A stretch of 40,317 nucleotides of DNA from a virus: IMG/VR virus record IMGVR_UViG_3300049796_000011, positions 1 through 40,317 of that record. The stretch is one strand, 5' to 3'. Of this stretch, positions 9,197 through 15,224 are shown in pieces. Position numbers and translations under genes: made by a program. Position 1 is the stretch's first letter. Every line of letters starts with the position of its first letter. The notes beneath the pieces were generated by a model. It was not told where the DNA came from and searched no databases. It saw nothing but the letters and a program-made list of their open reading frames with translations.

Positions 9197-9233
9197 GCGG
9201 ACCCGCGCCGGCTTCCCCCCGGCGCGGGTCCGC
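9197..9233 (+). terminator. Perfect 15-bp hairpin ending the first early block
   Basis: GCGGACCCGCGCCGG (9197-9211) pairs perfectly with CCGGCGCGGGTCCGC (9219-9233) around a 7-nt loop. It lies in the 80-nt gap between two early genes, the largest gap in this part of the operon. There is no T-tract. Likely a terminator or attenuator splitting early from replication genes. Confidence 0.7.
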
Positions 9234-12730: not shown

Positions 12731-13389
12731 TCGGGAAGCCGGGCACCGACACCGGACCCGAACTCTCCGACGACCCCGCCGAGTGCTGGGAAGCCCGCCA
12801 AGACGACTACGCAGCCACCTGCGGGCAAGCAGCGGGCGACCACTGCGCGTCATGCGAACTCTGCCCCGGCCACCACGCCGACGACTGCCGCGAAACCCCC
12901 GTCGAGCGCCTCGACCAGCTGGAGCTGATCGTGTGCGAGGCCCAGCCGCCGCACTGGGAGCTGTGGACCCGCCACGACCCCGGCGCCTGGTACCCGCCCG
13001 GCTGCCCGCTGTGCTGGCACGCCCAGGCCCGCGCCGAGCACGCCGGATGCGAGCACTCCCACCACCGAGCGTGGCGCCGATGGAAGCTCACCCACCGCGT
13101 CGTCGGCTGGCTGTACGTCCTCGGCATCACCTCCACCGGAGGCGGCTGGGCCTACAGCTCCGAGTGCGCCGGGTGCATGTACAGCCTGCCGCACCTGCGC
13201 GGCCGCCGGGTGTACGTCCTCGGCTGGCCCGCCTGGAAATGGGGGTGCCTGATCAAGAACCGGCACTGGCCCAGCAGCGAGTACATCGGGTTCGGGTGCT
13301 GCACCAAGTGCGCGCCCTGCCCCGAATGCGGCTCCATCGAGCCCAACCACGACGTGTTCCACCAGGCCGAGGAGACCCACGATGCCTGA
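12727..13389 (+). CDS. Cys/Trp-rich hypothetical protein (220 aa)
   Basis: A 220-aa product with some 20 Cys residues in CxxC-type pairs (CASCELC near 39, CPLCWH, CAGC, CCTKCAPCPECG near 200) and many Trp and His residues. This strongly suggests several zinc sites. The middle (about 115-185) has aromatic, partly hydrophobic strands. No catalytic motif is recognised. It overlaps the next gene by 8 nt. An early-expressed multi-zinc protein of this size is unusual for a phage. Confidence 0.65.
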   Translation: MIGKPGTDTGPELSDDPAECWEARQDDYAATCGQAAGDHCASCELCPGHHADDCRETPVERLDQLELIVCEAQPPHWELWTRHDPGAWYPPGCPLCWHAQARAEHAGCEHSHHRAWRRWKLTHRVVGWLYVLGITSTGGGWAYSSECAGCMYSLPHLRGRRVYVLGWPAWKWGCLIKNRHWPSSEYIGFGCCTKCAPCPECGSIEPNHDVFHQAEETHDA

Positions 13390-13891
13390 GATCACCCGCG
13401 AGGCCGTCGAGGCAGCCGCCCGGAAGATCCACACCCTCTACGACACCGCCACGGCGGACGAGCAGATCAACGCCCGCGAAACCGCCGTCGACGCGCTCAG
13501 CGCCGCCGTACCCCTCCTAGTCGACGCGGCCGCGCTGGTGCTGGACTTCCACCTCGCCTTCCGCCTTCCGATCGGCGACACCACCCGCACCCACAACGAG
13601 CTGCGTGCGAAGCTCATCCGCGAGGAAGCAGAGGAAGCGGCCGACGCGGTCGAATACCTCGGCCTCACGGAGCAGGCCAAGGAGCTGGCCGACCTAGTGA
13701 TCGTCGCCTACGGGGCAGCGCTCACCCTCGGCATCGACCTCGACCAGGCCGTCCGGCTGGTGCACGCATCGAACATGACCAAGCTCGGCGCCGACGGCGA
13801 GCCGGTGATGCGCGCCGACGGGAAGGTCCTGAAAGGCCCCAACTACACGCCGCCGAACATGGTCGCCGCGCTCCCGCGAGGTGGCGCGTGA
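13382..13891 (+). CDS. MazG-like nucleotide pyrophosphohydrolase
   Basis: The 169-aa product carries the all-alpha NTP-PPase (MazG/PRA-PH-like) signature: KLIREEAEEAADAV (about 79-92, the ExxE metal-binding helix) and ELADLVIVAYGAA (about 102-114, the second acidic helix), then HASNMTKLGADGEPV and KGPNYTPPN. Such enzymes hydrolyse NTPs to NMP and PPi, cleaning nucleotide pools or lowering alarmone levels during infection. The N-terminal 60 residues are an extra helical region. Substrate not determined. Confidence 0.8.
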   Translation: MPEITREAVEAAARKIHTLYDTATADEQINARETAVDALSAAVPLLVDAAALVLDFHLAFRLPIGDTTRTHNELRAKLIREEAEEAADAVEYLGLTEQAKELADLVIVAYGAALTLGIDLDQAVRLVHASNMTKLGADGEPVMRADGKVLKGPNYTPPNMVAALPRGGA

Positions 13892-14160
13892 GCTACGTCC
13901 CGTTCCGCGACAACCCGGACCTCGAAGACCTCCCCGCAGGCACCTACCTCCGCCTGGTCCCGCTCGCCGAGCAGATCGAACGCTCTAGCGCGATCGGCAA
14001 CCACGGCGACCAGTGCGGATGCACCGACCCCGCGTGCACGGTGCTCCGCAAGTACCTCCACGGTTGGGCACCCACGACCGTCGCTGAAGCCCTCGGGTGG
14101 CTGGTCGCGAAGGGGCTGCTCGACCTCGACGCAGCACGCGCAGCCGGATGGCCCACATGA
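13888..14160 (+). CDS. Small hypothetical protein (90 aa)
   Basis: A 90-aa product with a beta-like start, a GDQCGCTDPAC motif near residue 40 that may bind metal, and a helical end (VAEALGWLVAKGLLDLDAARAA). GTG overlaps the MazG-like stop, and the last codons overlap the methyltransferase ATG. Unknown function; position suggests an accessory to nucleotide or DNA modification genes. Confidence 0.55.
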   Translation: MSYVPFRDNPDLEDLPAGTYLRLVPLAEQIERSSAIGNHGDQCGCTDPACTVLRKYLHGWAPTTVAEALGWLVAKGLLDLDAARAAGWPT

Positions 14161-15224
14161 CCCGCGTCGGCAGCCTGTTCACCGGCTACGGCGGGCTCGA
14201 CGCCGCCGTCCGGTCAGTGCTCGGCGGCGACCTCGCCTGGGTGTCCGACAACCACCCCTCCGCAGTCAAGCTCCTCGCCCACCGGCACCCCGACGTGTCC
14301 AACCTCGGCGACATCACCGCCATCGACTGGACCACGGTCGCCCCGGTCGACGTGCTCACCGCCGGGTTCCCCTGCCAGGACATCAGCAACGCCGGACGCC
14401 GCGCCGGGATCGAAGGGGAACGCAGTGGGCTCTGGTCGTACGTGGTCGATGCCATTCGCGTGGTTCGACCCCGACTCGTCGTGCTGGAGAACGTCTCAGC
14501 CCTCGTTGTTCGGGGCCTCGACCGAGTCCTCGCCGACCTTGCCGCGATCGGGTTCGATGCGGAGTGGACGACTCTTCGAGCGTCCGACGTCGGAGCCCCT
14601 CACCGCCGCGAGCGTTGGTTCGCCGTCGCCGTCCCGTCCGTCGCCCGCGGGGTTGCTCCCAACCCCGCGGGCGACGGACGGGACGAAGGGCGGGCCGCAC
14701 CAGCACGGCTCGTCGGGGGACTTGATGCTGCCCTCAGCGGTGGCAACGCTCCTGCCCACGCCCACGGCGCGGGACGGGAAGGGATCGAACCAGCGCGGGG
14801 ACACGACCTGCCTGCACGGGGCGCTGCTACCGACACCACAAGCTCGGGACGGCGGCGGGCACTCCCCGTCACACCCGGCGCGACGCAAGGGGCTGAACTC
14901 GAAGCGGGGGGCCGGGCAGTTGGACGAGGTGGCGGTGCATCTGCTGTCGCCTGGGGCGACTACGAGCCCGCCATCCGCCGCTGGGAAGCCACCCTCGGCA
15001 GGCCAGCCCCCGCGCCCACCGAGCCCGGACGACGCGGCCAGCCCGTCCTGAGCCCTGATTTCGTCGAGTGGTTGATGGGTGTCGACGTCGGGTTCGTCAC
15101 CGGTGTGCCCGGTCTGTCCCGCAACGACATGTTGCGGCTGCTCGGCAATGGAGTCGTCCCGCAGCAGGGAGCCATCGCCGTCGACTACCTGCTCGACCAG
15201 TTCGAGGAGGTGCGGTGTGCCTGA
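14157..15224 (+). CDS. C5-cytosine DNA methyltransferase
   Basis: Transfers methyl groups from S-adenosylmethionine to cytosine C5, probably shielding phage DNA from restriction; no cognate endonuclease is nearby. The 355-aa product has motif I (FTGYGGLDAA), motif IV with catalytic Cys73 (GFPCQDIS), motif VI (ENV, 111-113), motif VIII (APHRRERWF, 147-155) and motif X (LLGNGVVPQQ, 328-337). Residues about 165-265, where the target-recognition domain should be, are low complexity (Gly/Ala/Arg-rich) in this frame. In the +1 frame the same DNA encodes LLPTP-type repeats (separate entry). ATG 14157 overlaps the previous stop (ATGA). Confidence 0.9.
   Translation: MTRVGSLFTGYGGLDAAVRSVLGGDLAWVSDNHPSAVKLLAHRHPDVSNLGDITAIDWTTVAPVDVLTAGFPCQDISNAGRRAGIEGERSGLWSYVVDAIRVVRPRLVVLENVSALVVRGLDRVLADLAAIGFDAEWTTLRASDVGAPHRRERWFAVAVPSVARGVAPNPAGDGRDEGRAAPARLVGGLDAALSGGNAPAHAHGAGREGIEPARGHDLPARGAATDTTSSGRRRALPVTPGATQGAELEAGGRAVGRGGGASAVAWGDYEPAIRRWEATLGRPAPAPTEPGRRGQPVLSPDFVEWLMGVDVGFVTGVPGLSRNDMLRLLGNGVVPQQGAIAVDYLLDQFEEVRCA
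14425..15051 (+). CDS. Overlapping +1-frame ORF with LLPTPxAxDG repeats
   Basis: A 208-codon GTG-started frame lies wholly inside the methyltransferase gene, in its +1 frame. It reads as a coherent Pro/Ser/Thr-rich protein: SSCWRTSQPSLFGASTES (18-35), LPRSGSMRSGRLFERPT (39-55), and three LLPTP repeats (77, 109, 134), each continuing x-A-x-D-G. This resembles a phage protein type I recall (TWPRSG..RNG and LLPTP motifs) often annotated with DNA methylases. Across the repeats the +1 frame is conserved by synonymous changes that alter the methyltransferase frame. It could be an overprinted gene, a relic of two compensating frameshifts, or a shadow. Expression is unproven; no Shine-Dalgarno is clear. 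Confidence 0.4.
   Translation: MGSGRTWSMPFAWFDPDSSCWRTSQPSLFGASTESSPTLPRSGSMRSGRLFERPTSEPLTAASVGSPSPSRPSPAGLLPTPRATDGTKGGPHQHGSSGDLMLPSAVATLLPTPTARDGKGSNQRGDTTCLHGALLPTPQARDGGGHSPSHPARRKGLNSKRGAGQLDEVAVHLLSPGATTSPPSAAGKPPSAGQPPRPPSPDDAASPS

Follow-up and report, generated by a model that had tools for sequence, protein, structure and literature searches.

Organization of the methyltransferase locus

The window analysed here, the whole 40,317-base stretch of an IMG/VR virus record (71% GC), carries genes for a terminase, an SPP1-like portal and a ReqiPepy6 Gp37-like protein, and comes from a tailed phage, most likely one with an actinobacterial host. The features of the methyltransferase locus are as follows.

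14157–15224, + strand: gene A (alpha), C5-cytosine DNA methyltransferase; frame 0, 355 aa; motifs I–VIII, spacer, motifs IX and X
14413–14427, + strand: putative internal start of B, AAGGGGAA followed by GTG 14425; from the sequence, at a position conserved in relatives
14425–15051, + strand: gene B (beta), nested +1 gene; 208 aa, GTG start; match to phrog_1008, +1 constraint and conservation in relatives
14425–14645, + strand: apparent dual-coding region, motifs VI–VIII of A (frame 0) with the N-terminal domain of B (+1); frame-0 third-position conservation rises here in relatives
14485–14505, + strand: WRTSQPS motif of B over LENVSAL (motif VI) of A; from sequence comparison
14646–14942, + strand: spacer of A, predicted to be disordered, over the LPTP array of B (+1); from pLDDT and the +1 wobble pattern
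14952–15224, + strand: WGDYEPAIRRWE helix and motifs IX (FVEWLMG) and X (GNGVVPQQ) of A; frame 0 here, the frame of B in split relatives

The ORF of gene A runs from ATG 14157 to the stop at 15222–15224. In profile searches A matched PF00145 (E 1.6e-36) and phrog_363 (1.6e-66), and its PF00145 catalytic domain contains the PCQ, ENV and GN motifs in order, identifying A as a C5 methyltransferase. Motifs IX and X, like all the other motifs of A, lie in frame 0. The AlphaFold2 model of A gave a pTM of 0.75, most of the chain apart from the spacer scoring a pLDDT above 90, and the closest solved fold to the folded part was that of M.HhaI (Foldseek E 4e-15). Target recognition is normally located between motifs VIII and IX in C5 methyltransferases. 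The corresponding spacer of A (residues 174–260) was modelled with pLDDT of only 32–47, and no ordered target-recognition domain was detected between VIII and IX within the A chain, as judged from pLDDT and from the lack of constraint in frame 0. A shares the catalytic fold with the monomeric enzymes M.HhaI and M.HaeIII but, unlike them, seems from its model to be devoid of an ordered recognition domain. The frame-0 spacer was also considered as a conserved recognition domain in its own right, and was rejected because the frame-0 peptide found 9 loci versus 44 for the +1 peptide and because the mismatches fall at the +1 wobble position. Two genes 5' of the methyltransferase gene, a PRA-PH/MazG-like pyrophosphohydrolase gene is located at 13382–13891 (PF01503, E 7e-12).

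Gene B lies wholly within the ORF of A. The preliminary description had proposed a 208-codon +1 frame inside a C5 methyltransferase gene, with three repeats near 14653, 14749 and 14824; this ORF was recovered exactly at 14425–15051, and the LLPTP units begin at those three positions. From its N-terminus, B consists of a WRTSQ/LPRSG domain, the three LLPTP repeats and an unconstrained tail. The element 'PPSxAGKPS' of this tail was rejected as a conserved domain, the substitutions there tracking frame 0. The database search of both frames, as the same description had advised, assigned A to PF00145 and phrog_363 and B to phrog_1008 ('DNA methyltransferase', E 3.4e-23, model positions 64–214). The C-terminus of A also matched phrog_1008 (model positions 226–322), indicating that one family is divided between two frames in the window and that the LPTP segment is continuous with motifs IX–X in relatives. 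The phrog_1008 model represents the split form, in which IX–X are attached, whereas the window has these parts in different frames. The model of B was of low confidence (pLDDT 57, with only the N-terminal strands confident) and gave no fold match among solved structures, and its sequence found no relative in the PDB. A role of the LPTP array in target recognition is therefore argued from its position.

Gene layouts among relatives

By scanning, at least 459 relatives were confirmed. Both ends could be placed in 76 loci. Relative to the N-terminus, 34 of these have the C-terminal motifs in frame 0, 42 have them in +1 and none has them in +2. The split class includes phiBT1, Samy, Upyo and IMG/VR contigs; here A ends shortly after motif VIII, and B is open in +1 from far upstream, in the order SWRTSQ, WPxSGM, ELPTS, LPTP repeats, WGxYxxAIxRWE, EWLMG and GNGVVPQ. 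The window resembles most other frame-0 loci in that A continues in frame 0 to IX–X, with the SWRTSQ/LPTP protein still encoded in +1 and ending before motif IX. In L065, L078, L083, L089, L092, a Leptospira plasmid, an Acinetobacter phage and others, motif IX is in B (+1) and motif X in A; the B protein of such divided-motif loci (L065, L078, L083 and others) terminates in LNPxWVEWLMGxPxGWT, a form of motif IX. On the tree of A, these layouts require at least 12 changes, indicating that switches of the C-terminal frame recurred.

In L033, frame 0 encodes the entire LPTP array, placed between motifs VIII and IX; the LPTP units of PFR1 and prophi104-2 are also found partly in frame 0 at this place. 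The LPTP segment of B therefore sits at the target-recognition position. Homologues with LPTP repeats in frame with the methyltransferase motifs, which the preliminary description would have taken as pointing to indels, thus do occur, but as natural alternative layouts with no sign of errors in the window. Its two readings, a true overlapping gene and a recognition insert displaced by two frameshifts, are both close to right. Two compensating indels of sequencing or assembly would indeed give such a picture in the window contig, which also carries a perfect 26-bp palindrome of its own. The same layout is, however, found in independent relatives, namely L008, L018, the L010–L017 group, L009, L027 and a Rickettsiales plasmid; an artificial displacement is hardly conceivable, and indel errors are excluded as the source of the layout.

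The palindrome, located at 14630–14685 within the A/B overlap, has a 4-nt loop and keeps both frames. With a fold z of −7.7, it exceeds every other hairpin of the window by a wide margin; the second in strength, at 9197–9233, has a 15-bp stem and a 7-nt loop. All the relatives examined lacked the 26-bp inverted repeat, the next best being 10 bp, and it is possibly a product of template switching.

Open frames, internal start and motif spacing

The length of the 208-codon frame alone was not significant when frame-0 codons were permuted synonymously (p=0.33), and the openness of +1 in the window is within chance at 71% GC. B might then be untranslated, with the +1 similarity only reflecting conservation of the methyltransferase in GC-rich DNA. 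In fact, the +1 similarity over motifs VI–VIII and IX–X partly mirrors frame 0, and the tail of B follows the constraint of frame 0. The confirmation of the overlapping gene accordingly comes from relatives and the substitution pattern, and not from the length of the open frame.

Among 27 nested loci, no stops were found in either frame 0 or +1 over 3,858 spacer codons; in split loci, frame 0 gathers 2.65% stops after the end of A. For 80 bacterial loci (15,615 B codons), we counted 19 stops in frame 0, 29 in +1 and 774 in +2. B lay inside the frame-0 ORF of A, with no frame-0 stop, in 73 of the 80 loci examined in bacterial genomes; these come from Acinetobacter, Pseudomonas, Paenibacillus, Planctomycetota, Patescibacteria and others, down to 40% GC. 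This openness of both frames in low-GC genomes is difficult to reconcile with an untranslated B. The low-GC +1 frames of an Acinetobacter phage, a Megaera plasmid and a Paenibacillus plasmid exceeded those after synonymous permutation (0/500), and that of the Leptospira plasmid was longer than permuted ones with p=.006.

An ATG or GTG preceded by a Shine–Dalgarno-like site was found 18–26 codons 5' of W-x-T in 25 of 39 non-redundant loci, and this conservation goes beyond the synonymous null for an untranslated frame (mean 6.8 and maximum 16 of the 39 loci in 200 permutations of frame-0 codons). The position of GTG 14425 in the window agrees with that of the conserved ATG/GTG lying 20–24 codons ahead of W[RK]T in relatives. 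The +1 W-x-T motif overlies LENV (motif VI) in 60 loci; in ten others it overlies [LVM]GD, part of an insert that separates VI from VII. Its distance to WP is 18–20 residues in +1 with few outliers (32 in four loci), while the frame-0 distance from ENV to the same +1 point changes from 17 to 39–42 codons. The +1 spacing of W-x-T is maintained even though the motif has moved across frame-0 peptides unrelated to one another, again contrary to an untranslated frame.

The +1 segment might instead be fused to frame 0 by programmed frameshifting after motif VIII, without a separate start for B. A ribosome moving to +1 close to where A ends in split loci would produce a single chain running from I–VIII into LPTP–IX–X. 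Yet both the +1 constraint and the conserved start begin well 5' of motif VIII, no slippery sequence is shared by split loci where A ends and the codons before the stop vary, and nested loci would require two shifts. We thus consider frameshifting highly improbable.

Constraint on the two frames

Position 1 of frame-0 codons corresponds to the wobble position of the +1 frame. The three LLPTP units of the window differ at 8, 8 and 22 sites at +1 codon positions 1, 2 and 3, in agreement with the earlier claim that the repeats vary at the +1 third position. The accompanying claim, that +1 and not the methyltransferase frame is constrained in the repeats, was supported by frame-neutral blastn of the LPTP region of the window against ten relatives, which gave 145, 59 and 40 mismatches at frame-0 positions 1, 2 and 3. 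The other three regions of the window showed frame-0 wobble, with 0.48–0.49 of the mismatches at position 3.

The same switch was observed among relatives. For frame-0 loci, the share of substitutions at frame-0 positions 1, 2 and 3 was.26,.20 and.54 in the N-terminus,.55,.24 and.22 in the LPTP region, and.22,.22 and.56 in motifs IX–X; for the LPTP region of split loci it was.69,.17 and.15, the pairwise counts sharing branches and thus not being independent. The L012/L013 pair, 94.5% identical, gave 21, 6 and 3 substitutions in LPTP, and since the switch to +1 constraint is visible in such close pairs, it appears to be current. Within this region frame 0 is unconstrained and wobble falls in +1, opposite to what an untranslated B would leave. 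Judged from these comparisons, that explanation is already contradicted for the family, and for the window we regard it as extremely improbable.

In the overlap with motifs VI–VIII, frame-0 synonymous conservation increased, split loci showing a rise from 1.30 to 1.69 times expectation (p 1.3e-7) and nested/N2 loci one from 1.13 to 1.51 (p.019), indicating that this stretch is dual-coding at the level of sequence. On the evidence of relatives and substitutions, the +1 frame represents an overlapping gene that is conserved and appears to have its own start, as had been envisaged in the preliminary description.

B could still be a relict that stopped working in the window phage after IX–X regained frame 0, leaving A as the sole enzyme, which may have lost activity or gained another recognition segment. 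A indeed has all the catalytic motifs in one frame, and the LPTP repeats of the window and its closest relative L008 are without clear +1 wobble (23, 23 and 16 at the codon positions), the repeat units probably having been shuffled. Against a relict stand the +1 wobble of the window LPTP in the ten-relative comparison, the +1 constraint still acting at 92–95% identity in nested relatives sharing the window layout, and the modelled disorder of the A spacer, which suggests that no recognition fold is left in A. Loss of B function in this phage is therefore unlikely.

Comparison with two-polypeptide enzymes and proposed model

Two-polypeptide C5 methyltransferases are already known, M.EaeI being one, and in the 1995 EcoHK31I paper the small-subunit gene reportedly overlaps the large one in another frame. 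Our literature search for the A/B overlap returned general or two-polypeptide statements only, that paper being outside its reach. M.EcoHK31I is a natural two-polypeptide enzyme with motif IX on the small subunit and X on the large one (PMC3404938). When a C5 methyltransferase is divided, naturally or artificially, between motif VIII and its recognition domain, the two parts work by associating with each other (PMC3404938, PMC5944983).

The large subunit of M.EcoHK31I carries motifs I–VIII, and its small subunit the rest needed for activity. The motif partition of L065, L078, L083, L089 and L092 corresponds to the one described for M.EcoHK31I in PMC3404938. As reported for M.EcoHK31I, the window appears, from constraint, openness and start, to have a second polypeptide in an overlapping frame. 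Division of IX and X between subunits was not found in the window, where both are in frame 0; A of the window has motif IX, unlike the large subunit of M.EcoHK31I, and B is composed of the N-terminal domain and LPTP array only. M.AquI is split between VIII and IX, and likewise the 42 split loci have I–VIII followed by IX–X in the next gene; this separation of I–VIII and IX–X onto different genes was not observed in the window. In contrast to M.AquI, the second gene of the split loci starts about 200–300 bases before the first ends, overprinted on motifs VI–VIII.

Overlap, joint openness, +1 constraint on LPTP, the conserved internal start and the alternative placement of IX–X are all apparent at the sequence level. 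We propose, with a probability of about three in four, that the locus encodes a two-polypeptide C5 methyltransferase in which the second subunit, encoded by overprinting in +1, contributes the part located between VIII and IX. In frame 0, A would provide the catalytic domain of motifs I–VIII, followed by a structureless spacer and finally by motifs IX and X. B would be initiated inside A at GTG 14425, downstream of the Shine–Dalgarno-like site, and read in +1, with its N-terminal domain overprinted on VI–VIII and its LPTP array taking the place of target recognition between VIII and IX. B would be expressed in the window phage. By analogy with C5 methyltransferases split between VIII and the recognition domain, which work by association, A and B may form a complex and assemble into a single enzyme. 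Since A seems to be without an ordered recognition domain and B has the segment that single-frame relatives hold at this place, B would give or complete recognition of the DNA target, and its LPTP array, from its position, may read that target. The copy number of LPTP varies widely among relatives, which is unusual for a specificity domain and counts against recognition by the array. As a likely origin, a frameshift after motif VIII would have moved the recognition segment and C-terminus to +1, to be expressed from an internal start, and later indels would have returned IX–X (window phage) or X alone (M.EcoHK31I-like layout) to frame 0.

It also appears fairly probable that an overprinted recognition subunit, widespread, ancient and mostly unannotated, exists in hundreds of C5 loci of phages and of several bacterial phyla, with IX and X shuttling between the two proteins through frameshifts and at least four layouts. 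As far as our searches show, the breadth of this overlapping class, the frame-resolved evidence of selection, the shuttling of IX–X between frames and the window layout, in which B is the overprinted domain plus LPTP array only, are new. Long same-strand overlapping genes are rarely accepted in prokaryotes; A and B overlap by 200 codons with two constrained frames, and the evidence is replicated in viral contigs and in genomes of several phyla. If the model is true, many 'orphan' or 'truncated' phage methyltransferases would be complete two-gene enzymes, the annotated gene cloned alone may give no activity, and the variable LPTP array may explain changes in specificity. The shuttling of IX–X between frames could be regarded as a natural experiment in protein splitting.

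Annotation mostly omits B or labels the pieces truncated, and plasmid and phage copies are annotated as one cytosine methyltransferase. In phage phiBT1 (L004:1230-2280), gp9.1 is annotated 'DNA methylase may be inactive', and an unannotated +1 gene with motifs IX–X comes next; the phiBT1 methyltransferase is probably complete, in two pieces. An E. coli prophage copy of the A/B pair (L097:1200-1961) is disrupted; its annotation is that of a pseudogene interrupted by an internal stop, and each of the two reading frames contains a stop at almost the same place. Five copies of one locus, tens of kb apart on a single uncultured Roseovarius chromosome record (L162–L166), match the B profile.
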